A stretch of 64,000 bases of DNA from positions 1 through 64,000 of the forward strand of contig JARWMV010000036.1 in assembly GCA_030998015.1 (NCBI GenBank), written 5' to 3'. Below, piece after piece: positions 13,614-45,962 of this stretch (position 1 is its first letter; each line of letters starts with the position of its first letter). The position numbers and the translations under genes are program-made. The stretch comes from Ceratorhiza oryzae-sativae (Eukaryota > Basidiomycota > Agaricomycetes > Cantharellales > Ceratobasidiaceae). The notes beneath the pieces are model-generated. The model was not told the origin of the DNA. It made no database searches and saw only the letters and a list, made by a program, of their open reading frames with translations.

Positions 13614-14393
13614 TGTTGTGACCCTCTGGAGGCTCCCTTGTGGAGCACTTAAGTAGTGGCTGCGTTGACGGTTTGGTGCTATGCAGTATGTATTGAGCGT
13701 TCTAGTTACAGTGTTTGCTATGGTCTATGGTGGTTGATGAGATAAAGCAAGCTGAGGCGTTCAGTCTTGCTTTACTCCCCTTATATACATGTGACTGCGG
13801 TTGCTGCGGTGGCCCCCCTTTCCTAAGCACCGTCTACAGCAGTTATAGGTTCTATATAGTACTAGGTCTTAGGTAATTGTTTATCCTAAGTTTGTGCGGC
13901 TCCGAATCTTATAGAGCCGTGTGAGGTCCGAGGGTCATGTGACTTTTGGACTTAAGCACCCAGCGCTTAATCGCTGGATAAGCGCCAAGGTCACGTGACA
14001 ACTTGCTCCTCGCTCCAAGTAACATGGGAGAGAAACGCTGGAGCGAGTTCAGGGTAACCACCAGCACTTGATCGCTGAGTAAGCGCCAAGGTCATGTGAC
14101 AACTCGCTCCTCGCTCCAAGTAACATGGGAGAGAAATGCTGGAGCGAGTTCAGGGTAACCACCGGCGCTTAATTGTTGGGTAAGCGCCGAGGTCATGTGA
14201 CAACTCGCTCCTCGCTCCAAGTAACATGGGAGAGAAATGCTGGAGTGAGTTCAGGGTAACCACTGGTGCTTAATCGTTGGGTAAGCGCCAAGATCACGTG
14301 ATCCTGTTTATGGTTTGTTCCGCTTCGGGAAAAATGCCATAAATCTGTACAATATTTGGTTGTTAGGTTATGTCTGCTAGGCGGGTCATAACA
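13614..14393 (-). repeat. Family D 3' LTR of copy A
   Basis: 780 bp in reverse orientation: TGTTGTGACCC at 13,614 to GGTCATAACA at 14,393, with the polypurine tract (C-run on the plus strand, 14,394-14,410) beside it. It contains three tandem units of about 105 bp. Each can fold because AACTCGCTCCAG and CTGGAGCGAG pair. The units are separated by TCACGTGA-like sites. Confidence 0.85.
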
Positions 14394-14470
14394 TTATCCC
14401 CCCCTTTGGACATGTCTTGGGGGATCTCAAGGCATGTTTCTTTTCTGGGTTCTAAAAGTTTCTAAAAGGT

Positions 14471-14595
14471 ATCTCATATATCAAGGAGGTTAAGGGCGCT
14501 GGACTCAAACCAACAACCTTCCGTTCGATGTGTAATTGCTCAGCTAGGAGATGATGAGTCAGGCTAGACCCCTTAACCTCTACGCTACATGAGAT
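14471..14595 (-). other. tRNA-like fold, copy A
   Basis: The ends pair (ATCTCATGTA with TATATGAGAT), as does an inner GGTTAAGGG/CCCTTAACC stem. The T-arm-like segment has decayed to GGTTTGAGTCC. See copy B for the better version. It lies between the Rep stop and the polypurine tract. Confidence 0.5.
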
Positions 14596-14690
14596 TACTT
14601 TCTCCTTGCTTATTTCCTTGTTTAAGCTTACTTCTCGACACATGGTCTGTGAATAAAACAGCTTATACAAAGATAATTTATTTTTATTTT

Positions 14691-15978
14691 TTAAGGAAAA
14701 ACAAAAAATGGCTTCCCTCCTGAGTATACCCAGTCTACATTTTTGGATACCCATAAGTCCCCTTCTTCCCCCTCTATGTCCGTCCAACACTTCATTATGG
14801 CCGACCAGCTATTCCCCAGGATCACCGTCGGCCATACCTTCATTGACTTCACATGAGCATATCTGCCTGTGAAGTCTGCCTTGTACTGGCTCAGGGCTTT
14901 GAGCAAGTACTTCCCGTTTGACTGGACCATGTCATCCAGGATCCAGATGTTGGTGTCCTCCAACAGATTCCCCACGTTCCAGACGTTGCACATCTGGCTA
15001 TGGGAGCCCTTGGATCGCGCATACGCTGTCTTCCCAGTTCCTGTTTCACCTTCGATCACCAGGATGCGATGGCGCACGCCCCTCCCTCTCTTCTCAGCCT
15101 CTTCCGCAAACCATTGGTCCGCCCTGTCGATGTGCACCCAGTCTTCTGGGACTTCCAACTCCACTGGGATTGCAGGCATGCATCCCCAGTCCTCCTTATA
15201 CGTGTACTCAGCATATGCTCGTACCGAGTTCCACGTCGTCACCATCTGGAGGGGGCGCAGGTGCTTGAATGCCTGGTAGTACTCTTTTTTTTGTTGCCGA
15301 GGCAACAATCTCCGCCCCGTCCTCCAGGTCCGCCTCTGCCCTCGACCTTTTCCTGCCGTTCCCCTTCACCAGGATTTCCTCCAACCTTTCCAAGGTCAGG
15401 TCCCCCACCATCAGCTCCTCTACCTCCTCGCTGTTAGCTCCGACATCCTTCCAGAGGTAGTTGAAAGCCTCCCTTGCAGGGTTGCCTCCTGGTCCGTCCT
15501 TGAGGTCCTTCGGCAGGATGTTGGGGTGTTGCCCCTCGAAGTCCCAGAACCAGGTGTTCTGGGTGTTCCAGCCGCCCTTCCGCTCCTGACTGATGGAGAG
15601 GGCGTGGACATGGAGGGGCTGGGCTGGGTCGTAGTTTGGTTCCTTGGGGTTGTGGTGTTCCACCACCGCCAAAGTTGCCCAATGATTTGGCCGTTGGCGG
15701 CAGAATGCCTCGTATCGGGCGACGAGCCCACTTGAGGGCTGATCGCGTAGCTTCGACCAGGTCAGCAGCACCGCCCTGGTCTGGACGCGGAACCGAGGGG
15801 CTGGCGCGGTTTCGGTCAGCTCTTCGGACCCTCGATCCGTCGGCATAGGCTGCATAGAAGTGGGCGAGGGGGCTTGGCTTGATACCGAGGGTGCTGGCAA
15901 TGGTGATGCTGACCTCCGCCCTTTGCTTGATCCGCTTGGCTGGGGTGTTGCCACGTTCGATCCATTTCCGCTTAGCAT
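14691..15978 (-). pseudogene. rep: CRESS-type Rep, copy A, one frameshift
   Basis: Rolling-circle replication initiator related to those of small circular ssDNA viruses. On the minus strand the HUH endonuclease has motif I VLLTWSK, motif II HVH, a geminivirus-like HPNI segment and motif III YLWK. The SF3 helicase has Walker A GETGTGKT, Walker B WILDD and motif C VILGN. The frame breaks near 15,283-15,290 in an A-run that is 8 long here and 7 in copy B, so nuclease and helicase lie in different frames. Some Trp changes (for example R to W) look like C-to-T decay. Full length would be about 430 residues. The family nicks an origin hairpin and joins its ends; the function inside a retrotransposon is unknown. 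Confidence 0.85.
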
Positions 15979-16519
15979 CGTTTACAGTTTTAGAGGTATT
16001 TGGGGACTGGGAAGAGAGCATGAGAGTGCGGGTTATCTCGGGCCTTGTGCTTGTCTATATAAGCTGCAAGGTCCATTTTGATCATCACATGACTCTGTCT
16101 TGCATTTGTTGTGATCACATGACCTTATTTCAGTGATGACGCATCTCCGAGGGGTGCCCTTCCATCCGTTCCTCCACGTCGGCCTTGATCCTCGCTGCGC
16201 TCAGGGCCTCCGCTCCCCCACTTCGGTCGGTGCCCCCTCTCCGACCCCTCCAGTAGTTAGGGGATAGCTTATATTCATGTGACTAGGCTAGGTCATGTGA
16301 TTCCTGTGCTTTGTTGTTTGTTTTCTGGCAGGTGGTCACATGACTAGGCTAGGTCATGTGATTCCCGTGCTTTGTTGTTTGTTTTCTGGCAGATGGTCAC
16401 GTGTCTGTTGGTGTCACCTGACCAGACCTTGTTTTGATGTTTGTGCAAGTTATTGTGTTGCACTGTGATTTTTTAATGTTTGTGGTTTTGTTGTTTTCCT
16501 TCCTCATCCCATCTTTACT
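15979..16519. promoter_or_regulatory. Divergent Rep/ORF2 intergenic region, copy A
   Basis: It holds the candidate origin hairpin at 16,245-16,263 (stems CCCCT/AGGGG, loop variant with T for C), two direct repeats of about 61 bp at about 16,277-16,398 containing CATGTGACTAGGCTAGGTCATG palindromes, and a TATATAAGC promoter element near 16,055 facing Rep. Same arrangement as copies B and C. Confidence 0.65.
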
Positions 16520-17061
16520 ATGTGTGTTATTTCCCTTAACTACAATCCCCTTGACTGCAACTGCTGGTCTCTCCCTGAGGGGGAGTACTGCGCCTACTGT
16601 GATGCCGTGTGCGACACCTCCCTTGAAGACTTCTATCAAGGTGTTGGGGACTGGTTCTTCTGTGGGGTGCCAGGTATGTGTGTTCATTCTTTGTCGTTCT
16701 CACGTAGCTAACTCGTTCTGTAGAAGAGCGCATCCTCCTTGATGGTCGGGCCCATGAGGCCACCCTTGAGCATGTCTGGGCGCTCGTTGATCAGGACTAC
16801 AAGTCCTTTGAGGAGCGGTCTCACCAGGCTGCTCTTGCTGAATTCTTCAAGGAGGGCTCTGCTCCCTTGTTTGATGAGGCTTCGCCCTTTGCAGCGTCTG
16901 GTTCTGGGTGTTTCCAGAACTACATGGCCGACTTCCCAGGGGGGGAGGCTCCTTGGCTGCAGCCCACTACCCAGTCAGTTGTTCAGACCAATAAGAAGGA
17001 TAAAAGGGGCAAGAAGCCCTATACCCGGCCCCTCAAGGGCAAACGTAAAAATAGAGAGTAA
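16520..17061 (+). CDS. Cargo ORF2, copy A: cysteine-rich, basic tail, one intron
   Basis: Exon 1 (16,520-16,673) has a dense cysteine pattern (CNC, CAYC, then single Cys) suggesting zinc binding. Intron 16,674-16,723 has a GTATGT donor, AGCTAAC branch site and CTGTAG acceptor. Exon 2 (16,724-17,061) runs in phase to a Lys/Arg-rich tail. About 163 residues. It is antisense to the retrotransposon, so its intron is not removed from the element's genomic RNA. The start is chosen because MxxIS is conserved at this point in copies A, B and C. The position opposite Rep is where ambisense ssDNA viruses keep their capsid gene, and the basic tail could bind nucleic acid, but I see no capsid homology. 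Confidence 0.65.
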
Positions 17062-17143
17062 AAGGAAATGTATTAAGTTTGGTGTGTAAAAGAAAAATAA
17101 AACTCTTATACATTTGGGAGACAATTTGTGGGAGGCAAAGTGG

Positions 17144-17525
17144 TCATATGGGGGTTGGTTCCAACAGTGGCACCTCCTCCAGAGCTTCGACAAGCTTGTT
17201 TTCCCACCGGTCCCAGTCCTGTTTGGCTTCCTCCACAGCTGGGTCCAGGGTGGGTTCCTTTATTTCTGGCTTGGCTTCTTCCTCAGCCACGACCAGTGAT
17301 TCTAGGCTTGATGTAAGGCTTGTCATATCAGTGTCGTAATTGGTGTTTTTGTTTGGGTGCACCTTCACCCGATTTCGGAAGTCGCTCATGTTTGCCTGCT
17401 TCGTCCTGATAGCAGTAAACATCTCATCAGTGGTAGTTGCTTCAAGCAGTCCCACATATGGTGCAGCTGGTGTCAACTTCCATTCTTCCAGCAATGCCTT
17501 TGCCCGGCGCTCCACCTCCCAGTCC
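17144..17525 (-). pseudogene. Cargo ORF1, copy A, N-terminus lost
   Basis: The last 120 or so codons of ORF1, ending at 17,144 and matching the C-terminal third of the copies at 23,765 and 28,427. It is cut at 17,525 by the start of copy B. It converges on ORF2, with about 80 bases between the stops. Confidence 0.75.
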
Positions 17526-18305
17526 TGTTATGACCTGCCTAGCAGACATAACCTAACAACCAAATATTGTACAGATTTATGGCATTTTTCCCGAAGTGGA
17601 ACAAACCATAAACAGGATCACGTGATCTCGGCGCTTACCTAACGATTAAGCACCAGTGGTTACCCTGAACTCGCTCCAGTGTTTCTCTCCCATGTTACCT
17701 GGAGTGAGGAGCGAGTTGTCACATGATCTCGGCGCTTACCTAACGATTAAGCGCCGGTGATTACCCTGAACTCGCTCCAGCGTTTCTCTCCCATGTTACC
17801 TGGAGCGAGGAGCGAGTTGTCACGTGATCTTGGCGCTTACCAACGATTAAGCGCCAGTGGTTACCCAGAACTCGCTCCACTGTTTCTCTCCCATGTTACC
17901 TGGAGCGAGGAGCGAGTTGTCACGTGACCTCGGCGCTTATTCAGCGATTAAGCGCCAGGTGCTTAAGTCCAAAAAGTCACATGACCCTCGGACCTCGCAC
18001 GGCTCTATAAGATTCGGAGCTGCACAAACTTAAGACAAACAATTACCTAACCCATAGTACTGTACATAACCTACACCTACTGCGGAATGTGCTTAGATAA
18101 TACGTCCGCAGCCACCGCAGCCACAGGTATATATAAGGAGGATAAAGCAAGACTGGATGCCTCAGCTTGCTTTATCTCGTCAACCACCATAGACCATAGC
18201 AAAAACACTGTAACTAGAACACTCAATACATACTGCATAGCACCAAACTGTCAACGCAGCCACTACTTAAGTGCTCCACAAGGGAGCCTCCAGAGGGTCA
18301 CGACA
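17526..18305 (+). repeat. Family D 5' LTR of copy B
   Basis: 780 bp, TGTTATGACC to GTCACGACA. It has three foldable tandem units of about 105 bp, then the promoter: a TATATATAAGG TATA box near 18,128 and the likely RNA start about 30 bases on. The 3' partner is 105 bp shorter because it has one unit fewer. Confidence 0.9.
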
Positions 18306-18307
18306 TT

Positions 18308-18319
18308 ATAAAGCAAGCT
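18308..18319 (+). other. Self-complementary primer-binding site of family D
   Basis: ATAAAGCAAGCT starts two bases after the LTR and is the exact complement of AGCTTGCTTTAT at 18,164-18,175, close to the predicted transcript start. This is the Tf1/sushi self-priming layout, in which the RNA 5' end rather than a tRNA primes cDNA synthesis. Confidence 0.6.
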
Positions 18320-18426
18320 CTTAACTTAACTAGTGGCGAACATAAGTATACTACACAGATACTAAGGGCTGAGTACACAAGAAAACCAGCTAACTCCTGT
18401 GATACATAAGAGAACATAAGGAAACT

Positions 18427-20331
18427 ATGTCACAGAGACCACAAACTCGATCTCAAAGCAGAGTGGCAAATAGTAGGCCACAATCACCCAAACCCATTGC
18501 TTCCCCAGAGGCTGAAGGTAACCCAGATGAGACCCTCCAAGGAATGCCAGGGGGGTTGCCACAAAACCCACGACCAGTGGCTCAACCCAACCCCACTCGG
18601 GCCCCCACCCTGGGAGGGGAAATAGGGGGAATACCACTCCACAGCCCTCAACCGCCAATTCACCTGACAAATCCAGACCCAGAAGATATCTCAAACCCAG
18701 AGAGAGATGAGGTAGAAGATATGACCTGAACCATATACGAACAAGGCACAGCCTTGGCGGAAGAGGCAAGGACACAACCCCAGCCAGGTCCCGGAACCAT
18801 AGCCACTGCCAACCCTATTCACACCATTGCCACAGCCATCAGGGTGGGGCTCAAGGAACTTAGAGACAATAATCATAGGGAACTAGAAAAGGCAATCACG
18901 GGTATAAATCAGTGTCAAATATCACTAACCCGACAAGAAGGAAATGTGGACTGGATGGTAAGGTCTATGGAAACATCCAACAAAAATGTCCTCTATGTGG
19001 CAAAGAACCAGGACGACCTAAAAGCAGAAATGGGAAACCTGATAAAAGAATTAAAGGACATCTCCATGGAAATAAACCAGGTACTGGGAATGCAAGAGCG
19101 AAAGCTTGAAAGCTTAGAGAAGAAAACCGAAAACACAGGGGAGATCCTAATCGCACTAGAACAACGGGTAACCAATCTAGGAAATGAGCTCCGGAAAAAC
19201 ACTGAAGCAGGAAGGCCAAGGGAAGGGACAGAAGAAACCAGGGGAAGAACTAGGGTGGTCATAGGAAGCCCCTCACGATCCCCCTCAGCCTCCCCAGTAC
19301 AAACACCCTTTCTGGGAAGAACCTTCCAGGCTGAGTCCACAATAAGACCCCGAACAGAACCTCCATCCCAAGCAAACCAACCTACCCTTGCTGCAAACCA
19401 CACTCCTAAGGAGGCGAGACTAGGGAGACCCAGCAAATTTAATGGGAAAAAGGGGAAGGAAGCAGAGAACTTCATAATCAGCATGGAACTTTTCTTTGCT
19501 GACTATGACGAATCAGCCTTTGATGACCGAAAAAAGATATCTGCTGTGCTAATGAACATGGAGGATGGGGAAGCAGCAAACTGGGCACAACCTTACCGCC
19601 AGAAACTATTAGCAGCGAACACACAGTATTCTTGCATCCTGGAAGGATTTCAGGAAGGGATTCCTGGATGCTTTTAATAACCCAGTCATAAAGGAAAAGA
19701 CCATCCGGAAACTAAGGAAATTAACACAGACCAAGAGTGCATTGGATTATGCTACCCAATTCCAGATCCTGATCCAAGAGGTAGACTGGAACCAGAAGCC
19801 CTCAAGGACCAATTCAGGGAAGGGTTAAAACCCAAAGTACGACAAGAGATCTTAAGGATTGAAGTACTGCAAATGAGGCTGAAGGTCCATCATATACCTT
19901 AGATCAATTAATCGACTTTGCCTGCAAAATGGATGACATGCAGTTTGCAAACCAGAAAATGAATACAAGGACCAGCAACTCATCAAATTCAACCTGGGCA
20001 CCAGCGAAATACAAACAAGGAGGGAACAAGCCTTAGGGACCACGGCAAACAGGGGAATACCCAAACCAACAACATGGTAAGGATACCAAACAGCGAAAAG
20101 GACAGGCGAAGGAAAGAAGGACTCTGTATCAAATGCGGTAAATCAGGGCATGTCCTGAAGGAGTGCCGAGGCCAGTGGACTACGACAAAGCTAAGATACA
20201 AGGGAAGGCCAGCAGACAAGTCGAGGAAGAAAGCAGCTCTGAGTCGGAAAACTAATTGGTCCTACCACTTCCATGTTGGAGGACCCCAATATAACCCCTA
20301 CCACAGATGTATGTTACCTCAAGAAGTCTAG
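18427..20331 (+). pseudogene. gag: Family D gag, broken
   Basis: Nucleocapsid/capsid precursor. It starts ATGTCACAGAGACC at 18,427. A Pro-rich N-terminus is followed by an in-frame TGA at 18,727-18,729, after which the same frame continues through a long helical stretch and capsid region to about 19,650. There it shifts frame. The zinc knuckle CIKCGKSGHVLKEC lies near 20,125-20,166 in the last part. At least one stop and two frame changes make it non-functional. It lies just before pol in the usual order. Confidence 0.75.
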
Positions 20332-20367
20332 TAATCAATCAATAAATACACTACGGTAGAGGGAATC

Positions 20368-23300
20368 ATGGAACCAGCTAAGACACTGATTGACTCAGGA
20401 TCTTCAACCAACTTCATCGATAAGGCCTATTCAAGGGAAAAAGGGATTCCAACCACTCCCCTCAAACACAAGAAGTCAATTGTGGCCATTGATGGAAATG
20501 AAATCAAGGATGCCATAGAAGAAAGGGCAGAACTAAACATCGAAGTGGAAGGGAAGACACTAAAATGCTCCCTTTATGTAATGACCCTAGGTGACACAGA
20601 CATAGTCCTAGGGAAAGAATGGCTTGAAGAAGCAGAACCTATCATAGATTGGAAAGACCTTACCATCTCATACCCAGACGAAATCAAGGCAAGGGCAGCA
20701 AGTGAAAGCCTACAAATCCCAGAAGAATTTAGGGATTTTGAAGACCTATTTGGGGAGGAAGGTTTCCAAGAACTTCCACCCCACCGAGGTAACCTAGACT
20801 TCAAAATGGACCTGATCGAGGGAGCAGAGCTGCCAAAGCCTGCAAAGAGGTACAGTATGTTGCCAGCAGAAACAAAGGCGCTCAGGGAGTACCTAGAGGA
20901 GGAACTAAGAAACGGGAAAATAAGGCCCAGCCAGTCAGTTGTAGCTGCACCCTGTTTCTATGTGAACAAAGCAGATGGAGGGCTCAGGTTGGTAGTCGAC
21001 TACCATAAGATGAATGACATCACCAAGCCAGACAGGTTTCCACTTCCAATCCAAATAGAATTGATTGAGAGACTGAAGGATGCAACCATCTATTCAAAAA
21101 TGGATGTTCGATGGGGGTTCAACAACATCAGGGTAAAAGAGGGAGACGAATGGAAAACAGCTTTCAGGACAGGAGAAGGCCAGTTTGAATGCTTGGTCAT
21201 GCCATTCGGAGTAAAAGAAGGACCAAGAACCTTTACCAGGTTCATGATGGAAAAGTTCCGTGATATAATAGACGATTATGTGGTAATCTACATGGACGAT
21301 GTACTAGTGTTTTCCAGAAACAGGGAAGAACATGTACAACATGTCAGGGAAGTGTTAAGAAGAATGAGGGAAAACCACCTCTTCCTCAAACCACACAAGT
21401 GTCAGTTCTTTGTGAAGGAAGTTAGCTTCATTGGAATTGTCATATCCCCAGGTGGGATATCGATGGAAAAGGAAAAGATAAAGGCAGTTCTAGAATGGCC
21501 AGAACCTAACACAGTAAAAGAAGTCCAAGCCTTCCTAGGCTTTGTGGGGTTCTATAGAAGGTGGATAGAGAAGTTTAGTACCTTAGCTAAACCCCTCACA
21601 GATCTCACCCAAAAGGATGCCAAATTTCTGTGGGAAAGAAAACAACAGGAAGCATTTGAAGCCATCAAAGAAGCAGTAGCAAGAGAACCAGTCCTGATCC
21701 ACCCAAACCCAAACAAGCCATACATACTGGAAACAGATGCCTCAGGAGTGGCCATGGGGGCGGTACTAAGCCAAAAGGGTGATGACAACTGATTGCATCC
21801 AATTGCCTTCCTATTGAAGAGCTTCACCCCACCAGAGAAAAATTATGACACCTACAACAAGGAGTTGCTTGCAATTGTTAGGTCCTTAGAGCACTGGAGG
21901 TTATACTTAGAAGGGACAGAGGAACCTATTGTGATATACACTGACCATAGGAACCTCCAGTACTGGCAAAATGCCCAGATGTGGAACAGAAGGCATGCCA
22001 GATGGTATCTCACTCTGGCACCCTTCAATTTTCAGATTGTGTATAGACCAGGGAAACTCTCACAAAAGCCAGATGCCCTTTCCAGAAGGAGCGACCATGG
22101 GGATACCCCTATGGAACCACAGATCATGATCCCAGAAGAAAGATTCATAGGTTTCATGGCAGAAGTACAGGGGAATTTCTGGGAAGAGCTTAAAGAAGCT
22201 CAGGAAGAAGACAAATCTATCAGATCCTTAAGGCTGAGTGTGGCAAATAAGGAACAACTACCACCCTCAGTACAGAAGGAATTTAGACGGTACGAAATGA
22301 AGGAGGGCCTATTAAGGTATGACAATAGGCTCTACATCCCGGATGACAAGGACTTGAGGTTGAGTCTCCTTGAGGAGTGCCATGACGCCCCAGTGGCAGG
22401 TCATCAGGGACAAGCCCGAACACTAGAATTACTATCAAGGGATTACTATTGGCCAGGAATGAAGGCCCAAGTAAACCGATATGTGGAATCTTGTGAAACG
22501 TGTCAAAGAAGCAAAGGACACAAACAAGGCACTCCCTGAAGTCCTTACCAATCCCATGGAAACCATGGGCAGATGTCGCATATGATTTCATCGTCAAATT
22601 ACCTGTCTCAAAGGGGTACGACAGTATTTGACAGTTGTAGATCGCTTCTCCGGCAGGCCCATTTTGTACCATGTCTGGAGAGCACCAATGCAGAAGAACT
22701 GGCAGAAATATTCATAAGGGAAGTATGGAGACATCACGGGACCCCAGAAACCACTGTCTCAGACCGAGGGCCAACCTTTAACAGCCAATTCCTAAAGCCC
22801 TATACAAAGGAATTGGGACAAAGCCCAGATTCTCCACTGCTTTCCATCCAGAAACAGATGGTCTGTCGGAAAGGACAAATCAATGGGTAGAAGGGTTCTT
22901 AAGAACCTTCTGCAATTATAGACAAGATGATTGGGTAAAATGGTTACCCATTGCCGAATTCTGCCATAACAACCACGTAAATGCTACAACAGGACAAACC
23001 CCATTTGAAACAGTATATGGAAAAAACCCAAGATGGGTTGTCCGAGAGGGAGAAGAACCATCTGAGGCACCCGCTGCAGACAACATGCGTAATCAAATGG
23101 AAAAGGTATGGGATGAGGCAAGAGCCTCAATGGAATTACACCAACAAATGGAAAAGAAAGGGAGGGAATTCAAGGTAGGAGACAAGGTTTGGCTGCTCCT
23201 AACAAACCTCTCATCCAGGAGACCCTCCAAGAAACTGGACAACCGAAAAGGGGGGCCCTTTGAAATCACAGAAAAGATCTCATCCCATGCATATCGCCTG

Positions 23301-23679
23301 GACCTACCTAAAACCATATGTACACAATGTATTCCATGTAGATCTCCTCTCGCCATTCACAGAAGATAAAGACTTCCGAAGAAGGCAGGCCAAACCACCA
23401 CCAATCATAACGGAAAAAGGAGAGGAGGAATACGAGGTGGACCACATTGCAAATTATGAATGGCGGAATGGCGAGCTGTTTTACCAAATCAGATGGAAGG
23501 GCTACGACCCAATAGAAGACACAATGGAACGTGCCAGCAAGTTTGCTGACATGAAAGAGGTTCTAAATGACTTGCAAAGGCGCTTACCAGACGCACCAAT
23601 GCCAGTCAAGACAAGTCAGCACTCAGGTGACTCGAAAGGCAGGCCAAAGAGAACCAAACGAGGATCTGGAAAGCTTTAA
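20368..23679 (+). pseudogene. pol: Family D pol, Ty3/gypsy chromovirus type, broken
   Basis: Domains in order: aspartic protease (LIDSGSSTNF near residue 7), reverse transcriptase with VVIYMDDVLVF (about 21,280), RNase H (ETDASGVAMGAVL), an in-frame TGA at 21,790-21,792, the rest of RNase H, integrase H2C2 finger (HDAPVAGH ... CETC), a frameshift near 22,540, the integrase core in shifted frames, and a chromodomain (LFYQIRWKGYDPIEDTMERA, about 23,470-23,540) ending at 23,679. The first break looks like CGA to TGA. Chromodomain and order define a chromovirus. The copy cannot make a full polyprotein. Confidence 0.85.
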
Positions 23680-23764
23680 AAGGAGCCATCCAGGATACCC
23701 AAGAGGCCAGAGCCTGCTCTACTACCTCACTTGCACCACAACACACCTGCGAAACCCCAAAAGC

Positions 23765-24580
23765 ATGCCTTTCGTCACTCACCCAATCGCACATCCCAAC
23801 CGTTACACCCCACTTGCCGAAAATCAGGTGGCCCCACTTCGGCAGCCACCCACCACCAGGCGGCCAGCACCCTACCCTGGCAGGGAAAATCGTCCTAAAC
23901 CAGGGATGTACTGCTCCAGTGTGGAAGACGCCCAGAGGTACGCCGAACGACTGTTGCCAGGGGCTAACCTAGTGTACATCCCAAAGAAGTTAAGGGATGA
24001 AAGGAACTGGATTGACGATGACAAGTACCTGGATCCCAGGTTAGGGGTCCTGACATGGCATGGAAGCCGGAAGCCAACGACGAAACGCCTTGTTAAGAAC
24101 ACCGATGTATGTGTCGACAATATCGTGGGACCAACAGTCGACGTGGTGACCAAGGCAGCAAGGCAACAGAGGAGGGCCACAGGCCAAATGGCAGACGGAG
24201 GGGACTGGGAGGTGGAGCGCCGGGCAAAGGCACTGTTGGAGCAGTGGAAGCTGGCACCGGCGGCACCGTATGTGGGACTGCTTGAGGCCACTACCACTGA
24301 TGAAATGTTTACTGCCATCAGGTTGAAGGAAGCAAACTTGGCCGACTTCCGTAACTGGGTGAAGGTACGCCCAAACCTGCACGGTTACGACACAGATATG
24401 TCGAGCCTCACGGCAAGCCTGGAGTCCCTGGTGGTGAAGGAGGAGGAGCCGAGAGTAACGATAAAGGAACCAACCCCGGACCCGGCCCAAGAGGGAGTCC
24501 AAACGGATTGGGCCAAATGGGAGGATGAGCTGGCGGGCGCCTTGGAGGAAGTGCCCCTGCTGGCCCCGGAGCCCCTGTGA
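23765..24580 (+). CDS. Cargo ORF1, copy B, unknown function
   Basis: 271 residues from ATG at 23,765, 86 bases after the pol stop. The start is placed at MPFVTHP because it is shared with copy C; the frame is open further upstream only as an overlap of pol. The N-terminal third is Pro/Arg-rich, the middle is Lys/Arg- and Leu-rich (YAERLLPGANLVYIPKKLR), and the C-terminus is acidic (ALEEVPLL). Two small compensating indels alter about 12 residues relative to copy C near 24,080-24,110. No domain recognised. It runs head-on into ORF2 with about 85 bases between the stops, as convergent genes do in ambisense ssDNA genomes. Confidence 0.6.
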   Translation: MPFVTHPIAHPNRYTPLAENQVAPLRQPPTTRRPAPYPGRENRPKPGMYCSSVEDAQRYAERLLPGANLVYIPKKLRDERNWIDDDKYLDPRLGVLTWHGSRKPTTKRLVKNTDVCVDNIVGPTVDVVTKAARQQRRATGQMADGGDWEVERRAKALLEQWKLAPAAPYVGLLEATTTDEMFTAIRLKEANLADFRNWVKVRPNLHGYDTDMSSLTASLESLVVKEEEPRVTIKEPTPDPAQEGVQTDWAKWEDELAGALEEVPLLAPEPL

Positions 24581-24664
24581 TTATCGGGCCTATCACACGT
24601 TTTTTTTGGAATGTCTTAAGAATAATTTTTCATAATCATATAATAATACATTTCAAAAATGTTT

Positions 24665-25206
24665 CTATTTTTTCTTGCCCTTGAGGGGCCGGGTATAGGG
24701 TTTTTTTGCCTTCTTATCCTTCCTAGTAGTACGGGCCGCAGAACCACCGGCCCGGTTCTCAGGCAACAGCCAGGGGGCCTCCCCCCCTGGGAGATCAGCC
24801 ATATAGTTCTGGAAACATCCAGAACCAGAAGCCGCAAAGGGTGAGGCCTCATCAAACAAAGGGGCCGAGCCCTCCTCAAAAAACTCAGCAAGGGCAGCCT
24901 GGTGTTGCCGCTCCTCAAATAACCGGCAGTCCTGGTCAACGAGCGCCCAGACACGCTCAAGGGTGGCCTCATGGGCCCGACCATCAAGGAGGATGCGCTC
25001 TTCTACAGAACAAGTTAGCTACGTGAGAACGACGAAGAACAAACACACATACCGGGCACCCCACAGAAGAACCAGTCCCCAACACCTTGATAGAAATCTT
25101 CAAGGGAGGCGTCGCACACGGCATCACAGTAGGCGCAGTACTCCCCCTCAGGGAGAGACCAGCAGGTGCAGTCAAGGGGATTATAGTTAAGGGAAATAAC
25201 ACGCAT
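24665..25206 (-). CDS. Cargo ORF2, copy B: cysteine-rich, basic tail, one intron
   Basis: Exon 1 is 25,206-25,053, intron 25,052-25,003 (50 bp, GTATGTG donor, AGCTAAC branch, CTGTAG acceptor) and exon 2 is 25,002-24,665. The reading phase and intron position equal those of copies A and C. Exon 1 holds CTC and CAYC pairs. The tail is KKDKKAKKPYTRPLKGKKK. It appears intact, unlike gag, pol and Rep around it. It is antisense to the element and divergent from Rep. Confidence 0.65.
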
Positions 25207-25747
25207 AGTAAAGACGGGATGAGGAAGGAAAACAACAAAACCACGAACATTAAAAAATCACAGTGCAACACAATAACGTGCACAAACATCAAAACAAGGT
25301 CTGGTCAGGTGACACCAACAGACATGTGACCATCTGCCAGAAAACAAACAACAAAGCACGGGAGTCACATGACCTAGCCTAGTCATGTGACCACCTGCCA
25401 GAAAACAAACAACAAAGCACAGGAATCACATGACCCAGCCTAGTCACGTGAATATACGCTATCCCCTAACTACCGGAGGGGTCGGAGAGGGGGCACCGAC
25501 CGAAGTGGGGGAGCGGAGGCCCCGAGCGTAGCGAGGATCAAGGCCGACGCGGAGGAACGGATGGGAGGGCACCCCTCGGAGATGCATCATCACCAAAATA
25601 AGGTCATGTGATCACAACAAATGCAAGACAGAGTCATGTGACAATTAAAACGGACCTTGCAGCTTATATAGACAAGCACAAGACCCGAGATAACCCACAC
25701 TCTCATGCTCTCTTCCCAGTCCCCAAATACCTCTAAAACTGTAAACG
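25207..25747. promoter_or_regulatory. Divergent intergenic region with candidate replication origin, copy B
   Basis: Contents: two direct repeats of 61 bp (25,323-25,383 and 25,384-25,444) each with TCACATGACCTAGCC and AACAAACAACAAAGCAC; the hairpin CCCCTAACTACCGGAGGGG at 25,463-25,481 (5-bp stem, 9-nt loop AACTACCGG); a G-rich stretch to about 25,525; and a TTATATA box at 25,664-25,670 for Rep. Repeats beside a short hairpin with a 9-nt loop match the architecture of a CRESS-virus origin, although the loop is not the familiar TAATATTAC. Confidence 0.6.
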
Positions 25748-27034
25748 ATGCTAAGCGGAAATGGATCGAACGCGGCAACACCCCAGCCAAGCGGATCAAG
25801 CGAAGGGCGGAGGTCGGCGTCGCCATTGCCAGCGCCCTCGGTATCAAGCCGAGCCCACTCACCCGCTTCTATGCGGCCTACGCTGACGGATCGAGGGTCC
25901 GAAGAGCTGACCGAAACTGCGCCGGCCCCTCGGTTCCGCGTCCAGACCAGGGTGGTGCTGCTGACCTGGTCGAAGCTACACGATCAGCCCTCAAGTGGGC
26001 TTGTCGCCTGATACGAGGCGTTCTGCCGCCAACGGCCAAATCATTGGGCAACTTTGGCGGTGGTGGAACGCCACAACCCCGAGGAACCGAACTACGACCC
26101 GGCCCGGCCCCTCCATGTCCACGCCCTCTCCATCAGTCAGGAGCGGAAGGGCGGCTGGAACACCCAGAACACCCGGTTCTGGGACTTCGAGGGGCAACAC
26201 CCCAACATCCTGCCGAAGGACCTCAAGGACGGACCAGGAGGCAACCCTGCAAGGGAGGCTTTCAACTACCTCTGGAAGGATGTCGGAGCTAACGGCGAGG
26301 AGGTAGAGGAGCTGATGGCAGGGGACCTGACCTTGGAAAGGTTAGAGGAAATCCTGGTGAAGGGAAAGGGCAGGAAAAGGTCAAGGGCGGAGGCGGACCT
26401 GGAGGACGGGGCGGAGATTGTTGCCTCAGCGACAAAAAAAGAATACTACCAGGCATTCAAGCGCCTGCGCCCCCTCCAGATGGTGACAACATGGAACTCA
26501 GTACGAGCATATGCTGAGTACACGTATAAGGAGGACCGGGGATGCATGCCTGCAATCCCGGTGGAGTTGGAAGTCCCAGAAGACCGGGCGCACATCGACA
26601 GGGCGGACCGATGGTTTGCGGAAGAGGCTGAGAAGAGAGGGAGGGGCGTGCGCCATCGCATCCTGGTGATCGAAGGCGAAACAGGAACTGGGAAGACGGC
26701 GTATGCGCGATCCAAGGGCTCCCATAGCCGGATGTGCAACGTCTGGAACGTGGGGAATCTGTCGGAGGACGCCGACATCTGGATCCTGGATGACATGGTC
26801 CAGTCAAACGGGAAGTACTCGCTCAAAGCCCTGAGCCAGTACGAAGCAGACTTCACAGGCAGATATGCTCATGTGAAGTCAATGAAGGTACGACCAACGG
26901 TGATCCTGGGGAATAGCCGGTCGGCCATAATGAAGTGTTGGACGGACATAGAGGGGGAAGAAGGGGACTTATGGGTATCCAAAAACGTAGACTGGGTATA
27001 CTCAGGAGGGAAGCCATTTTTTATTTTTCCTTAA
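25748..27034 (+). pseudogene. rep: CRESS-type Rep, copy B, one nonsense codon
   Basis: 429 codons from ATG at 25,748 to the stop at 27,032-27,034, broken only by TGA at 26,009-26,011 where copies A and C have an Arg codon (CGA to TGA). The nuclease motifs VLLTWSK, HVH, HPNI and YLWK lie at about residues 75-180. The helicase motifs GETGTGKT, WILDD and VILGN lie at about residues 310-395. The break falls between motif I and motif II, so the frame from 26,054 on lacks a complete nuclease. An overlapping frame (25,705-26,292) is also open; see findings. Identity as Rep is firm. The closest lineage (Geplafuvirales-like) is inferred from the HPNI segment. Confidence 0.88.
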
Positions 27035-27070
27035 AAATAAAAATAAATTATCTTTGTCAAGGAGAAAGTA

Positions 27071-27195
27071 ATCTCATGTAGCGTAGAGGTTAAGGGGTCT
27101 AGCCTGACTCATCATCTCCTAGCTAATCAATTACACATTGAACGGAAGGTCGTTGGTTCGAGTCCAGCGCCCTTAACCTCCTCGATATATGGGAT
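27071..27195 (+). other. tRNA-like fold before the polypurine tract, copy B
   Basis: An outer stem (ATCTCATGTA with TATATGGGAT) and an inner stem (GGTTAAGGG with CCCTTAACC) enclose CTAG...CTAG and a T-arm look-alike, GTTGGTTCGAGTCCAGC. GGTTCGAGTCC fits the tRNA B box and TAGCGTAGAGGTTAAGG resembles an A box. It is not a normal cloverleaf: the outer stem lies beyond the T arm by about 20 bases. Found at the same place in all three copies. Confidence 0.5.
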
Positions 27196-27273
27196 ACCTT
27201 TTAGAAAACTTTTAGAACCCAGAAAAGAAACATGCCTCGAGATCCCCCAAGACATGTCCAAAGGGGGGGATAA

Positions 27274-27948
27274 TGTTATGACCCGCCTAGCAGACATAAC
27301 CTAACAACCGAATATTGTACAGATTTATGGCATTTTTCCCGAAGCGGAACAAACCATAAACAGGATCACGTGATCTCGGCGCTTACCTAACGATTAAGCG
27401 CCGGTGGTTACCCTGAACTCGCTCCAGCGTTTCTCTCCCATGTTACCTGGAGCGAGGAGCGAGTTGTCACGTGACCTCGGCGCTTATTCAGCGATTAAGC
27501 GCCGGTGGTTACCCTGAACTCGCTCCAGCGTTTCTCTCCCATGTTACCTGGAGCGAGGAGCGAGTTGTCACGTGACCTCGGCGCTTATTCAGCGATTAAG
27601 CGCCGGGTGCTTAAGTCCAAAAGGTCACATGACCCTCGGACCTCGCGCAGCTCTATAAGATTCGGAGCCGCACAAACTTAAGACAAACAATTACCTAACC
27701 CATAGTACTGTACATAACCTACACCTACTGCGGAGTGTGCTTAGATAATACGTCCGCAGCCACCGCAGCCACAGGTATATAAGGAGGATAAAGCAAGACT
27801 GGATGCCTCAGCTTGCTTTATCTCGTCAACCACCATAGACCATGCAAACACTGTAACTAGAACACTCAATACATACCGCATAGCACCAAACCGTCAACGC
27901 AGCCACTACTTAAGTGCTCCACAAGGGAGCCTCCAGAGGGTCACGACA
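27274..27948 (+). repeat. Family D 3' LTR of copy B
   Basis: 675 bp, TGTTATGACC to TCACGACA, preceded by the polypurine tract AAAGGGGGGGATAA (27,260-27,273). It has two tandem units against three in the 5' LTR; otherwise the two are closely similar. The junction at 27,949 passes directly into integrase sequence of copy C. Confidence 0.9.
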
Positions 27949-28340
27949 CATATCGCCTGGACCTGCCTAAAACTATACGTGTACACAATGTATTCCATGT
28001 AAATCTCCTCTCGCCATTCACAGAAGATAAAGACTTCTGAAGAAGGCAGGCCAAGCCACCACCAATCATAACGGAAAAAGGAGAGGAGGAATACGAGGTG
28101 GACCACATTGCAAATTATGAATGGCGGAATGGTGAGCTGTTTTACCAAATCAGATGGAAGGGCTACGACCCAATAGAAGACACAATGGAACGTGCCAGCA
28201 AGTTTGCTGACATGAAAGAAGTTCTAAATGACTTGCAAAGGCGCTTACCAGACGCACCAATGCCAGTCAAGACAAGTCAGCACTCAGGTGACTCGAAAGG
28301 CAGGCCAAAGAGAACCAAACGAGGATCTGGAAAGCTTTAA
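27949..28340 (+). pseudogene. pol: Family D pol 3' end (integrase tail, chromodomain), copy C
   Basis: Integrase C-terminus, a stop near 28,038, then an intact chromodomain frame (28,098-28,340) with QIRWKGYDPIEDTMERA and a basic tail. Nearly identical to 23,288-23,679. Confidence 0.8.
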
Positions 28341-28426
28341 AAAGAGCCATCCAAGATACCCAAGAAAGGCCAGAGCCTGCTCTACCACCTCACTTGCACC
28401 ACAACACACCTGCGAAACCCCAAAAC

Positions 28427-29248
28427 ATGCCTTTCGTCACTCACCCAGTCGCACATCCCAACTGTTACACCCCACTTGCTGAAAATCAGGTGGCCCCACT
28501 TCGGCAGCCACCCACCACCAGGCGGCCAGCACCCTACCCTGGCAGGGAAAATTGTCCTAAACCAGGGATGTACTGCTCCAGTGTGGAAGACGCCCAGAGG
28601 TACGCTGAACGACTGTTGCCAGGGGCTAACCTAGTATACATCCCAAAGAAGTTAAGGGATGAAAGGAACTGGATTGACAATGACAAGTACCTGGATCCCA
28701 GGTTAGGGGTCCTGACATGGCATGGAAGCCGGAAGCCAACAACAAGAAACGCCTTGTTAAGAACACCGATGTATGTCGTCGACAATATCGTGGGACCAAC
28801 AGTCGACATGGTGACCAAGGCAGCAAGACAACAGAGGAGGGCCACAGGCCAAATGGCAGATGGAGGGGACTGGGAGGTGGAGCGCCGGGCAAAGGCATTG
28901 CTGGAAGAATGGAAGTTGACACCAGCTGCACTGTATGTGGGACTGCTCGAAGCAACTACCACTGATGAGATGTTTACTGCTATCAGGACAAAGCAGGCAA
29001 ACATGAATGACTTCCGAAATTGGGTGAAGGTGCACCCAAACAAAAACACCAATTACGACACTGATATGACAAGCCTTACATCAAGCCTAGAATCACTGGT
29101 TGTGGCTGAGGAAGAAGCCAAGCCAGAAATAAAGGAACCCACCCTGGACCCAGCTGCAGAGGAAGCCAAACAGGACTGGGACCGGTGGGAAAACGAGCTT
29201 GTCGAAGCTCTGGAGGAGGTGCCACTGTTGGAACCAACCCCCAAATGA
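28427..29248 (+). CDS. Cargo ORF1, copy C, unknown function
   Basis: 273 residues from the conserved ATG (MPFVTHP). It appears complete, with the same Pro/Arg-rich N-terminus and acidic C-terminus as copy B. About 130 codons from the end, the motif VERRAKALLEEWKLTPA begins a helical region shared by all three copies. Differences between copies are mostly substitutions that keep the frame, which suggests selection on the protein at least until recently. No family recognised. Confidence 0.65.
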   Translation: MPFVTHPVAHPNCYTPLAENQVAPLRQPPTTRRPAPYPGRENCPKPGMYCSSVEDAQRYAERLLPGANLVYIPKKLRDERNWIDNDKYLDPRLGVLTWHGSRKPTTRNALLRTPMYVVDNIVGPTVDMVTKAARQQRRATGQMADGGDWEVERRAKALLEEWKLTPAALYVGLLEATTTDEMFTAIRTKQANMNDFRNWVKVHPNKNTNYDTDMTSLTSSLESLVVAEEEAKPEIKEPTLDPAAEEAKQDWDRWENELVEALEEVPLLEPTPK

Positions 29249-29329
29249 CCACTTTGCCTCCCACAAATTGTCTCCCGAATGTATAAGAGTTTTATTTTTC
29301 TTTTACACACCAAACTTAATACATTTCTT

Positions 29330-29871
29330 TTACTCTCTATTTTTACGTTTGCCCTTGAGGGGCTGGGTATAGGGCTTCTTGCCCCTGTTATCCTTCTTAT
29401 TGGTCCGAACAACTGACCGGGTAGTGGGCTGCAGCCAAGGAGCCTCCCCCCCTGGGAGGTCGGCCATGTAGTTCTGGAAACACCCAGAACCAGACGCTGC
29501 AAAGGGCAAAGCCTCATCAAACAAGGGAGCAGAGCCCTCCTCGAAGAATTCGGCAAGAGCAGCCTGGTGAGACCGCTCCTCAAAGGACTTGTACTCCTGA
29601 TCAACGAGCGCCCAGACACGCTCAAGGGTGGCCTCATGGGCCCGACCATCAAGGAGGATGCGCTCTTCTACAGAACAAGTTAGCTACATGAGAATGACGA
29701 AGAACGAACACACATACCTGGCACCCCACAGAAGAACCAATCCCCAACACCTTGATAGAAGTCTTCAAGGGAGGCGTCACACACAGCATCACAGTAGGCG
29801 CAGTACTCCCCCTCAGGGAGAGACCAGCAGGTGCAGTCAAGGGGATTGTAGTTAAGGGAAATAATACGCAT
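29330..29871 (-). CDS. Cargo ORF2, copy C: cysteine-rich, basic tail, one intron
   Basis: Exon 1 is 29,871-29,718, intron 29,717-29,668 (50 bp) and exon 2 is 29,667-29,330. Donor, branch site, acceptor and phase equal those of copies A and B. The frame is also open upstream of the chosen ATG to 29,916, but that part is not shared as coding with copy A. The tail is RGKKPYTQPLKGKRKNRE. The gene looks intact. Confidence 0.65.
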
Positions 29872-30415
29872 AGTAAAGAACGGGATGAGGAAGGAAAACA
29901 ACAAAACCATGAACATTAAAAAAAATCATGGTGCAACACAATAACTTGCACAAACATCAAAACAAGGACTGGTCAGGTGACACCAACAGACACGTGACCA
30001 TCTGCCAGAAAACAAACAACAAAGCATGGGAATCACATGACCTAGCCTAGTCACATGACCACCTGCCAGAAAACAAACAACAAAGCACAGGAATCACATG
30101 ACCTAGCCTAGTCACGTGAATATACGCTATCCCCTAACTACCGGAGGGGTCGGAGAGGGGGCACCAACCGAAGTGGGGGAGCGGAGGCCCCAAGCGTAGC
30201 AAGGATCAAGGCCGATGTGGAGGAACGGATGGGAGGGCACCCCTCGGAGATGCGTCATCACCGAAATAAGGTCATGTGATCACAACAAATGCAAGACGGA
30301 GTCATGTGACAATCAAAACGGACCTTGCAGCTTATATAGACAAGCACAAGGCCCGAGATAACCCGCACTCTCATGCTCTCTTCCCAGTCCCCAAATACCT
30401 CTAAAACTGTAAACG
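29872..30415. promoter_or_regulatory. Divergent intergenic region with candidate origin, copy C
   Basis: Direct repeats of 61 bp at 29,991-30,051 and 30,052-30,112, hairpin CCCCTAACTACCGGAGGGG at 30,131-30,149, and a TATATAGAC promoter element near 30,335 facing Rep. The hairpin is identical to copy B although the GC-rich stretch beside it has substitutions. Confidence 0.6.
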
Positions 30416-31701
30416 ATGCTAAGCGGAAATGGATCGAACGCGGCAACACCCCAGCCAAGTGGATCAAGCGAAGGGCAGAGGTCGGCGTCGCCATCGCCAG
30501 CGCCCTTGGTATCAAGCCGAGCCCCCTCGCCCACTTCTATGCGGCCTACGCCAACGGATCGAGGGTCCGAAGAGCTGACCGAAACTGCACCAGCCCCTCA
30601 GTTCCGCGTCCAGACCAGGGTGGTGCTGCTGACCTGGTCGAAGCTACACGATCAGCCCTCAAGTGGGCTCGTCGCCCGATACGAGGCGTTCTGCTGCCAA
30701 CGGCCAAATCATTGGGCGACTTTGGCGGTGGTGGAACGCCACAACCCCGAGGAACCGAACTATGACCCGGCCTGGCCCCTCCATGTCCACGCCCTCTCCA
30801 TCAGTCAGGAGCGGAAGGGCAGCTGGAACACCCAGAACACCCGGTTCTGGGACTTTGAGGGGCAACACCCCAACATCCTGCCGAAGGACCTCAAGGATGG
30901 ACCAGGAGGCAACCCAGCAAGGGATGCCTTCAACTATCTTTGGAAGGACGTTGGAGCTAATGGCGAGGAGATAGAGGACCTGATGGCGGGGGACCTGACC
31001 TTGGAAAGGTTGGAGGAGATTTTGGTAAAGGGAAAGGGCGGAAAAAGGTCAAGGATGGAGGCAGACTTGGAGGATGGGACAGAGATTGTTGCCTCAGCAA
31101 CAAAACAGGAGTACTACCAGGCGTTCAAGTGCCTCCGCCCCCTCCAGATGGTGACGACATGGAACTCGGTACGAGCATATGCCGAGTACACATACAAGGA
31201 AGACCGGGGTTGCATGCCTGCAATCCCTGTGGAGTTAGAGGTCCCGGAAGACCGGGAGCACATCGACCGAGCAGACAGATGGTTTGCGAGGAAGTCGAGA
31301 AGAAGGGAAGAGGGGTGCGCCATCGCATCCTGGTGATAGAAGGAGAAACTGGAACAGGGAAAACAGCATATGCACGATCCAAGGGCTGCCACAGCCGGAT
31401 GTGCAATGTGTGGAATATGGGCAACTTGTCGGAAGATGCCGACATTTGGATCCTGGATGACATGGTCCAGTCGAACGGGAAGTACTCGCTCAAGGCCCTG
31501 AGCCAGTACGAGGTGGACTTCACAGGCAGGTACGCGCATGTGAAATCGATGAAGGTACAGCCAACAGTCATTCTGGGAAATAGCCGGTCGGCAATCATGA
31601 AATGTTGGTCGGACATAGAGGGGGAAGAAGGGGACTTATGGGTATCAAGAAATGTGGAATGGGTGTATGCAGGAGGAAAGCCATTCTTTGTATTCCCTTA
31701 G
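30416..31701 (+). pseudogene. rep: CRESS-type Rep, copy C, one frameshift
   Basis: The nuclease half (30,416 to about 31,285) is open, with VLLTWSK, HVH, HPNI and YLWK. A one-base loss near 31,287, relative to copy B, moves the helicase half (about 31,290-31,701, GETGTGKT, WILDD, VILGN) into another frame. The helicase half differs from copies A and B mostly at synonymous sites (EEVEKKGRG against EEAEKRGRG), a sign of past protein-level selection. Confidence 0.87.
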
Positions 31702-31819
31702 AATAATTTATGGTACTGTACAACTTCTGCTATGCCCATCCAAACAGTTGGGGCTTTCTGAGAAGAAGCAGACAAATCCTCACCCCTAAATAACCTCCAC
31801 AACAAAGAAAAGAAAAACA

Positions 31820-31944
31820 ATCTCATGTAACAGAGAGGTTAAGGGGTCTAGCCTGACTCAGCCTGACCTCATCAAACAATACTGAATCAGCCAAAAGGTC
31901 GTTGGTTCGAGTCCAGTGCCCTTAACCTCCTTGGTGCATGAGAT
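31820..31944 (+). other. tRNA-like fold, copy C
   Basis: Outer stem ATCTCATG/CATGAGAT is perfect here, inner stem GAGGTTAAGGG/CCCTTAACCTC is longer, and the T-arm look-alike GTTGGTTCGAGTCCAG is kept although the middle has diverged. Compensation in the outer stem between copies argues for a folded RNA. Confidence 0.5.
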
Positions 31945-32010
31945 TCCTTTTGCATAAGGAACTAAACCATGTCTCGAGGTCCCCCAAGACATGTCCAAAG
32001 GGGGGGATAA

Positions 32011-32906
32011 TGTTATGACCTGTCAAACGGACATAACAAAACAACCAAATATTTCTACAGATTTATGGCATTTTTCCTAAGCGGAACAAGCCATAAACAA
32101 GGTCACGTGACCTTGGTGCTTAGCCGGCGCTTACGGTGGTTACCCTGAACTCGCTCCAGCATTTCTCTCCATTGTTACTTGGAGCGAGGAGCGAGTTGTC
32201 ATGTGATCTTGGCGCTTACGGCAGGATCACGTGACCTCAGCGCCTACGGTGGTTACCCTGAACTCGCTCCAGCATTTCTCTCCCTTGTTACTTGGAGCGA
32301 GGAGCGAGTTATCACGTGATCTTGGCGCTTACAGCATGATCACGTGACCTCAGCGCCTGTGGTGGTTACCCTGAACTCGCTCCAGCATTTCTCTCCCTTG
32401 TTACTTGGAGTGAGGAGCGAGTTGTCACGTGATCTTGGCGCTTACAGCAGGGTCATGTGACCTCAGCGCTTACAGTTGTTACCCTGAACTCGCTCCAGCA
32501 TTTCTCTCCCATGTTACTTGGAGCGAGGAGCGAGTTGTCACGTGATCTCGGCGCTTATGGCAGGATCACGTGACCTCAGCGCCTACCCCTCGGACCTCGT
32601 GTGGCTCTATAAGATTCGGAGCCACACAAACTTAAGACAAACAATTACCTAACCCATAGTATTATACATAACCTACACCTACTGCAGAGTGTGCTTAGAT
32701 AATACGTCCGCAGCCACCGCAGCCACAGGTATATATAAGGAGGATAAAGCAAGACTGGACGCCTCAGCTTGCTTTATCTCGTCAACCACCATAGACCATA
32801 GCAAAACACTGTAACTAGAACACTCAATACATACTGCATAGCACCAAACCGTCAACATAGCCACTACTTAAGTGCTCCACCAGGGAGCCTCCAGAGGGTC
32901 ATGACA
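32011..32906 (+). repeat. Family D 3' LTR of copy C, expanded
   Basis: 896 bp, TGTTATGACC to GTCATGACA, after the tract AAAGGGGGGGATAA. It has four foldable tandem units, the most in the window, separated by TCACGTGATC- and TCACGTGACC-type sites. The TATATATAAGG promoter lies near 32,731. Confidence 0.85.
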
Positions 32907-38025: not shown

Positions 38026-38027
38026 TC

Positions 38028-45036: not shown

Positions 45037-45558
45037 TGTCATGGCCTAGACCATGACCATGATTTTATTATGAATTTTAATCATTTTATTTATCAATGAT
45101 TTCTTTGTATTTTGGACAAGTCCTGTTTATTCAGATATATGCAGTTTATTTACCTAGATGTCATGTGACCTTGTTGTTTTTGACTCACTGTTTGGTATTG
45201 CCAGAATGTTCTGTGATAACATGGCATTTAGTACTTCTTATTGGTCCTGGTATTTGATATGTACAGCCTCAGCCATGAATATATAAGGGAGAGTCTGAGA
45301 GCCTTAAGCCTCAGAACTCAACCTCCTGTTCTACCCTCTTCATTGTCTACCCTCTAGGCCACCAAGCCAGAGGTCTCTTGCCCAGCTATCTTCATAGCAA
45401 GTGCACTGTTACTCTACCCTGCATCTCATCACACCAAACCCCTTGTTCACTGCACATTCTACCTTAGACGTTGCAGTCTGACCTCCAGCTGTTATAGCCC
45501 ATAGGTCTGCCATTGCCTGATCAGTGTTTGGCCTTATTCGTGATGGTGTGGCCTTTAC
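45037..45558 (+). repeat. Family C 3' LTR
   Basis: 522 bp, TGTCATGGCCTAGACC to GGCCTTTACA, after GGGGGGGAAG. TATA box near 45,281. It terminates the element that hosts element B and interrupts a Rep relic on its right. Confidence 0.85.
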
Positions 45559-45962
45559 AATCCATATGTTAGCATCTTCCAACAGTGCCCCTACATTCCA
45601 CACATTGCACACTCAGCTGTGGGAGCCTTTTGATCATGCATAGGCCATCCTCCCTATCCCAGTCTCTCCTTCAATCACCAGGATGTGGTGAAACCTGCCC
45701 CTCTCCTTCCTCTGGACTTCCTGTGTGAACCACCTGTCTGCCTGTTCCACATGGTCCCTTACTTCTGGTGTTTCCAGTTGCACTGGTATTGCTGGTATCA
45801 GGCCAGTGTCTTCCCTGTAGGTGTAGTCTGCATATGCCTGTACCAAGTTCCAGGCTGTTGTCATTTGGAGTGGTTGGAGTCATTTGTATGTTTTGTAAAA
45901 CTCCTCCTTTGTGGCTGCCCCTACAATCTCCTGTCCATCCTCCATGTCAGCCTGTTGCCACA
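45559..45962 (-). pseudogene. Old Rep relic
   Basis: On the minus strand, this is the middle of Rep: the segment linking nuclease and helicase, then Walker A decayed to GETGIGR and the start of the next helicase block (CNVWNVGALLEDANIWI), where a family C LTR cuts it. It is CpG-poor and more diverged than copies A-C, so the Rep-bearing family has been here for a long time. The nuclease part is missing. Confidence 0.75.

Follow-up and report, generated by a model that had tools for sequence, protein, structure and literature searches.

Does a replication-initiator (Rep) gene of the kind carried by circular Rep-encoding single-stranded (CRESS) DNA viruses belong to the long terminal repeat (LTR) retrotransposon in which it lies? 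The question is raised by a 64,000-nucleotide stretch of the Ceratorhiza oryzae-sativae genome (contig JARWMV010000036.1; hereafter the window), whose positions 17526-27948 (copy B) form a Ty3/gypsy chromodomain retrotransposon with LTRs, primer site, gag, pol and polypurine tract (PPT). An initial sequence-only reading of the window had proposed that Rep and two other genes, held between pol and the 3′ LTR, are part of the mobile unit. Genome-wide data support this proposal: the LTR-to-LTR unit bearing Rep inserts with 5-bp target duplications, the order of the module is constant, and the module is common to two diverged subfamilies. Very likely, the family is a self-priming chromodomain LTR retrotransposon, present in many copies and recently mobile, that has taken up a stable three-gene module, including a Rep of the geminivirus/genomovirus lineage; the genes that it has captured and conserved are of a type unexpected in an LTR retrotransposon.

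The evidence comes from searches of the 48.8-Mb assembly (253 contigs) with Rep (124 rows; 123 of 222 candidates scored, the best-scoring 30 loci read), reverse transcriptase (RT; 90 of 1133 candidates scored) and ORF1, an open reading frame (ORF) of the module (129 of 209 candidates scored). At all 30 best Rep loci, B included, Rep is followed in the same orientation by a tail and the family 3′ LTR, and the 3′ flanks all differ among the 10 loci for which flanks were printed. A Rep outside the LTRs, the observation that the sequence-only reading had said would count against it, was seen at none of the 30 loci; one decayed relic in the window sits in no recognisable element. Identical 5-bp target duplications surround 18 of the 25 elements compared at both ends. 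Whether such insertions hold the module had been the suggested check, and Rep lies between the ends in 18/18, together with an RT match in 14 of them (those without an RT match being C36 (second element), C8, C17 and C3, the last a short derivative). By coordinates, Rep lies 5.1-7.1 kb downstream of RT on the same strand at 50/90 RT loci, against 0/90 in each of three wrong-side or wrong-strand controls, and ORF1 precedes Rep in 85/129 ORF1 copies (controls 2/129, 0/129 and 0/129). Limited scoring explains part of the shortfall of Rep at the other 40 RT loci: Rep is present at C14 and C20:288398, and module sequence at 7 of 16 further loci, each probed at a single point. LTR pairs are 96.4-99.7% identical in 12 elements, including B and three others without a duplication, which indicates recent movement.

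Copy B is ordered 5′ LTR, primer site, gag, pol, ORF1 (+), ORF2 (-), Rep (+), hairpin, PPT and 3′ LTR, with the following features:

17526..18305, plus strand: 5′ LTR, beginning TGTTATGACC and ending GGTCACGACA, with tandem units of ~101 bp in U3
18164..18175, plus strand: putative mRNA 5′ end, 36 nt downstream of the TATATA at 18128; this part of the LTR is complementary to the primer site
18308..18319, plus strand: primer-binding site, self-priming and Tf1/sushi-like, a 12-nt complement of LTR 18164-18175
18427..19680, plus strand: gag region with an approximate end and, in B, a TGA within it; DUF4939 at E 0.00035, below cut-off
20368..22539, plus strand: pol with aspartic protease, RT, RNase H and integrase H2C2 (Pfam), two ORFs in B
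22540..23679, plus strand: pol with the remaining integrase, SH3_Tf2-1 and chromodomain; B has broken frames here, and the domain calls come from the homologous C143 ORF
23765..24580, plus strand: ORF1, which encodes about 272 aa without a known domain and has relatives in Ceratobasidium sp. AG-Ba
24665..25206, minus strand: ORF2, 163 aa once a predicted 50-nt intron (25052-25003) is removed, divergent from Rep
25207..25747, no strand: ORF2-Rep intergenic region, a putative bidirectional promoter
25748..27034, plus strand: Rep, with HUH nuclease and superfamily 3 (SF3) helicase motifs and one TGA in B
27071..27200, plus strand: predicted conserved tRNA-like hairpin ahead of the PPT
27260..27273, plus strand: PPT, AAAGGGGGGGATAA
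27274..27948, plus strand: 3′ LTR

The chromovirus layout first proposed thus stands for the LTRs, PPT, pol and the place of the ORF1/ORF2/Rep module; the primer site, by contrast, shows no recognisable tRNA-type match. Its 12-nt complementarity to the LTR was matched by 1 of 1000 shuffled primer regions. A primer site complementary to the LTR just past the TATA box is a hallmark of Tf1/sushi-like self-priming. The domain order protease, RT, RNase H, integrase and chromodomain is present (Pfam on B, and on the fused C143 ORF for the chromodomain, where Chromo scored E 1.1e-05, barely above its cut-off). This C143 element (L069; also L083-L085) is a shorter derivative in which the start of gag continues in frame into the integrase C terminus and chromodomain, with the module retained; one 5′ flank is common to C143, C186, C164 and C3, with a target duplication in C3 alone. 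Tandem U3 units of ~101 (or 113) bp occur at 17600-17980, 27366-27600 and 32127-32691 and in the LTRs of other copies, and the two LTRs differ by 92-201 bp, about one or two such units, in 10/12 elements. The tail hairpin is conserved between Rep and the PPT in both subfamilies (also in L093, L094, L035 and L092), with 36 predicted pairs and both-sided changes at 5 of them (7 sequences). A tRNA gene in the tail was rejected, ARAGORN being negative with and without introns and the Rfam scan returning no tRNA.

What kind of Rep is this? Its motif set is of the geminivirus/genomovirus type, in agreement with the CRESS assignment made initially, and leaves little doubt that Rep is a CRESS-type protein from that side of the group. 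The order is LHVHA, GRS-like RFWDFEGQHPNILPKD, YLWK, GETGTGKT, WILDDM and VILGN. We compared these by eye with the genomovirus consensus as given in the part of PMC11052389 used here and with the partial text of a Botrytis mycovirus report (PMC8309985). HUH motif II (LHVHA) and the YxxK motif III (YLWK) are kept in 30/30 copies, the SF3 Walker A, Walker B and motif C are present, and the GRS block lies between motifs II and III (RFWDFEGQHPNILPKD in Rep vs DFLDYCNHHPNILPIR in the mycovirus). Motif I, LLTWSK, departs from the viral uuTYxQ: the hydrophobic residues and T are kept, and Y and Q are missing. With motif I relaxed, the ordered pattern occurred in 0/20000 shuffles of Rep and in 14/32 relatives over 340 aa; several of the 18 relatives failing it come from gene models whose N termini are altered or that have internal gaps. 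Searches of reference collections were sparse: Pfam Gemini_AL1 was not among the matches for Rep members, PDB gave no useful match by sequence, PHROGs gave nothing below E 0.08, a viral contig collection that may lack such viruses gave no match, a plasmid search gave a single match at E 3, and PF08283 hit two places in the organism's own genome, both sub-threshold.

Rep is under purifying selection, with its catalytic residues kept. The 12 catalytic or motif residues tested are retained in 30/30 copies, and also in three diverged copies where covered. The ratio of nonsynonymous to synonymous substitution rates (dN/dS) is 0.088 between L011 and L035 (93 synonymous and 34 nonsynonymous changes), 0.141 for L011-L092, 0.216 for L035-L092 and 0.085 for L035-L094, where dS is near saturation; for L011 vs L093 and L011 vs L094, dS was not computable. 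By part, L011-L035 gave 0.026 in the helicase part and 1.19 in the N-terminal 62 codons. A 195-aa ORF in another frame overlaps the N-terminal half of Rep (25705-26292, and the same place in other copies), and some of the gene models of Ceratobasidium AG-Ba show part of it on inspection by eye. Dual coding of this half was considered and dropped: synonymous change is low in L011-L035, and not clearly so between other copies.

The two other genes of the sequence-only reading were likewise found beside Rep, with the proviso that the ORF2 frame depends on removal of the 50-nt intron. This predicted intron (50-52 nt) is placeable at one position in 27/30 loci, starting with GT in 27 and ending with TAG in 26; its removal leaves a 163-aa frame in 14/27, while the unspliced frame stops by residue 63 in 27/27. 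ORF2 dN/dS is 0.27 over 351 pairs (0.775 for L011-L035). ORF1, for which PDB gave no useful match, shows a dN/dS of 0.22 between L090 and window copy C and 0.57-0.58 for two close pairs.

When did Rep and the retrotransposon come together? In the second subfamily (C12/C20), RT is 65/64% identical to that of B and Rep 72.6/70.6% identical over 343 aa, with Rep at the same place and the PPT-LTR junction in both elements; ORF1 is found in both, and ORF2 in the one whose ORF2 region was read. The Rep tree has one fork without clear branching that joins the main subfamily, the second subfamily, Ceratobasidium sp. AG-Ba and Ceratobasidium spp. 395/428, so the two subfamilies may have separated as early as these species arose. 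A Rep profile search, which scored the 7994 candidates with the most shared words, listed 80 proteins, and all the organism-named ones are from Ceratobasidium; both relatives of ORF1 are from Ceratobasidium sp. AG-Ba.

The window itself holds further copies and relics:

13614..17525, minus strand: copy A, inverted and 5′-truncated, with the module and an LTR at 13614-14393
27949..32906, plus strand: copy C, 5′-truncated and beginning in the integrase C terminus, with an LTR at 32011-32906
45556..45954, minus strand: relic of a decayed Rep with 63% identity over 133 aa, outside B and any recognisable element

The sequence-only reading had leaned on the constancy of the module across A, B and C. 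The module and LTR of B are indeed repeated in A (inverted) and C, with most ungapped blocks 84-98% identical. However, the three copies meet exactly at LTR ends and form a rearranged island; they are not independent evidence, and the window alone leaves mobility unproven, whereas the genome-wide data are independent. A by-eye LTR-like relic at ~47285-47545 lies on the minus strand, like the Rep relic at 45556-45954, and the two are perhaps remnants of an older copy. Positions 37649-44516 belong to a different LTR retrotransposon family with gag and pol ORFs and a 300-bp direct repeat (6568 bp apart, 99%), and Rep was not found within it.

We propose that genomic RNA started in the 5′ LTR would prime itself and be reverse transcribed, and that the element's integrase would insert the product. 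A divergent internal promoter would drive both Rep and ORF2: ORF2 and its predicted intron are antisense to the genomic RNA, so the intron would not be lost in retrotransposition, which points to separate transcription. Viral Reps nick and unwind DNA and recruit host replication factors. The likeliest role of this Rep would be to act on element DNA in these same ways, helping extrachromosomal DNA, and since insertion takes the retroelement route, Rep probably assists the DNA stage of the element as an accessory protein. Its role could possibly extend to rolling-circle copying.

Several observations weigh against this picture. The 30 Rep loci are biased toward intact copies, being the best scoring of the 123 scored among 222 candidates. 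Target duplications are lacking in 7/25 elements: C247, C44, C143, C186, C164, C251b (whose 5′ end was not located) and B itself (flanks agtcc / catat). B is also damaged, with one TGA in Rep and stops that split pol, and the initial description of it as complete has to be withdrawn. Where the module was predicted, nine of the 16 probed RT loci lacked its sequence; in two of these nine, a look further upstream did not reveal it, and elements without the module may exist. On selection, one or two TGA codons interrupt Rep in 14/30 copies, every one at a CGA or CAA codon of L011, a pattern that fits cytosine deamination; dN/dS reaches 0.859 for the close, decayed pair L093-L094 and 0.407 for L011-L010, whose N termini align badly. 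Over 435 pairs of the 30 loci the median is 0.31 and the ratio of summed dN to summed dS 0.28, and L035 appears to be a recombinant, given its little synonymous change relative to L011 in codons 1-182. Relatives elsewhere keep the key residues less strictly (His 49/52 and 48/53, Tyr 51/56, motif I Thr 29/48). Finally, Gemini_AL1_M stayed below its cut-off (best 19.5 bits against 24, E 0.001, 8/26 members, model span 10-106/107), and the Rep fold model used for structure searches was of low confidence (pLDDT 54).

Could the module do more than we propose, or less? Under dual replication, Rep would nick an origin in one- or two-LTR element circles and drive rolling-circle amplification beside reverse transcription. 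The HUH, Tyr and SF3 residues kept in 30/30 copies and the strong selection on the helicase part are in its favour, as are short palindromes seen by eye in the U3 units and upstream of Rep. Of 31 segments upstream of Rep, 22 matched a looser origin pattern (shuffled segments: mean 1.9/31 for the whole pattern), 20 of them through TATTATTAT, read on the minus strand and always at the same position between the ORF1 and ORF2 ends (window 24640). This word resembles the viral origin nonanucleotide and has no stem by eye; it is a lead only, since the copies share it by descent. Against dual replication, TAATATTAC, TAATATTA, TAGTATTAC and TAATGTTA were absent from all 31 segments (the LTR was not scanned for these words), the same exact hairpin recurred in just 4/31, with an unrelated one in two others, and motif I lacks the viral Y and Q. 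The rolling-circle initiation envisaged in the sequence-only reading is thus hypothetical, and the integrase alone suffices for the target duplications. We consider dual replication unlikely, and it is similarly doubtful that two replication engines, reverse transcription and HUH rolling circle, were united before the subfamily split, possibly before the Ceratobasidium species.

At the other extreme, Rep could be a passenger, a viral gene captured by chance that only hitchhikes. LTR elements do capture extra ORFs, as the portions of PMC5408684 and PMC7264820 drawn on here describe, and the TGA-bearing copies and the L093-L094 ratio fit such a history; yet the other diverged copies have dN/dS well below 1, the residues are kept and Rep occurs in two subfamilies, which makes a mere passenger very unlikely. 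It is barely credible that the module is a separate mobile element inserted repeatedly beside LTRs. A geminivirus-like transposon with terminal inverted repeats (TIRs) is described for Tuber melanosporum in the part of PMC3198968 used here, and 44/129 ORF1 copies have no scored Rep downstream, but place, orientation and PPT/LTR junction are constant, the duplications flank the whole unit, and no free module copy with its own target duplications was seen in the 30 loci. The same partial source (PMC3198968) raises protection by endogenous viral sequences, and the fungus might keep Rep against related single-stranded DNA (ssDNA) mycoviruses. With more than 100 copies linked to a single kind of element, selection on the element is a better fit than selection on one host locus, and we regard this host-level use as highly improbable.

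The preferred reading, a retrotransposon with a stable Rep module, sets this family beside several known systems. Fungal chromoviruses of the Tf1/sushi type have LTRs, a self-complementary primer site, SH3_Tf2-1 and a chromodomain at the integrase end, and 5-bp duplications. The present family shares all of these, and we know of no Tf1/sushi chromovirus with a Rep/ORF1/ORF2 module between pol and PPT. As in Genomoviridae and Geminiviridae, the Rep motifs follow the order motif II, GRS, III, Walker A, B and C, and Rep is divergent from a second gene; unlike in those families, motif I reads LLTWSK, no canonical origin was seen and no capsid gene recognised, and the whole lies inside an LTR element. 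The T. melanosporum transposon, as far as the cited portion of its description goes (PMC3198968), likewise occurs in many copies as a mobile element of a fungus and has a gemini-like Rep, but it carries TIRs and transposase ORFs, has no obvious target duplications and is not a retroelement. The bdelloid elements Juno and Vesta (PMC5408684) and plant elements with additional ORFs (PMC7264820) resemble our family in that they hold further ORFs, sense or antisense, in many cases located between pol and the 3′ LTR; those named in the parts of these papers used here are exonuclease, esterase, env-like or unknown, with no Rep among them. Among the matches listed by a literature search over titles and abstract openings of open-licence papers, there was no LTR retrotransposon with a CRESS Rep. 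A conserved, selected Rep of ssDNA-virus type in a retrotransposon provides a testable system for what a rolling-circle initiator offers a retroelement, and a possible route for the survival and spread of ssDNA viral genes in eukaryotic genomes. Retroelements, which are RNA-based, and ssDNA replicons, which depend on Rep, are usually regarded as unconnected kinds of mobile DNA; here a Rep of the latter type is a gene of the former.

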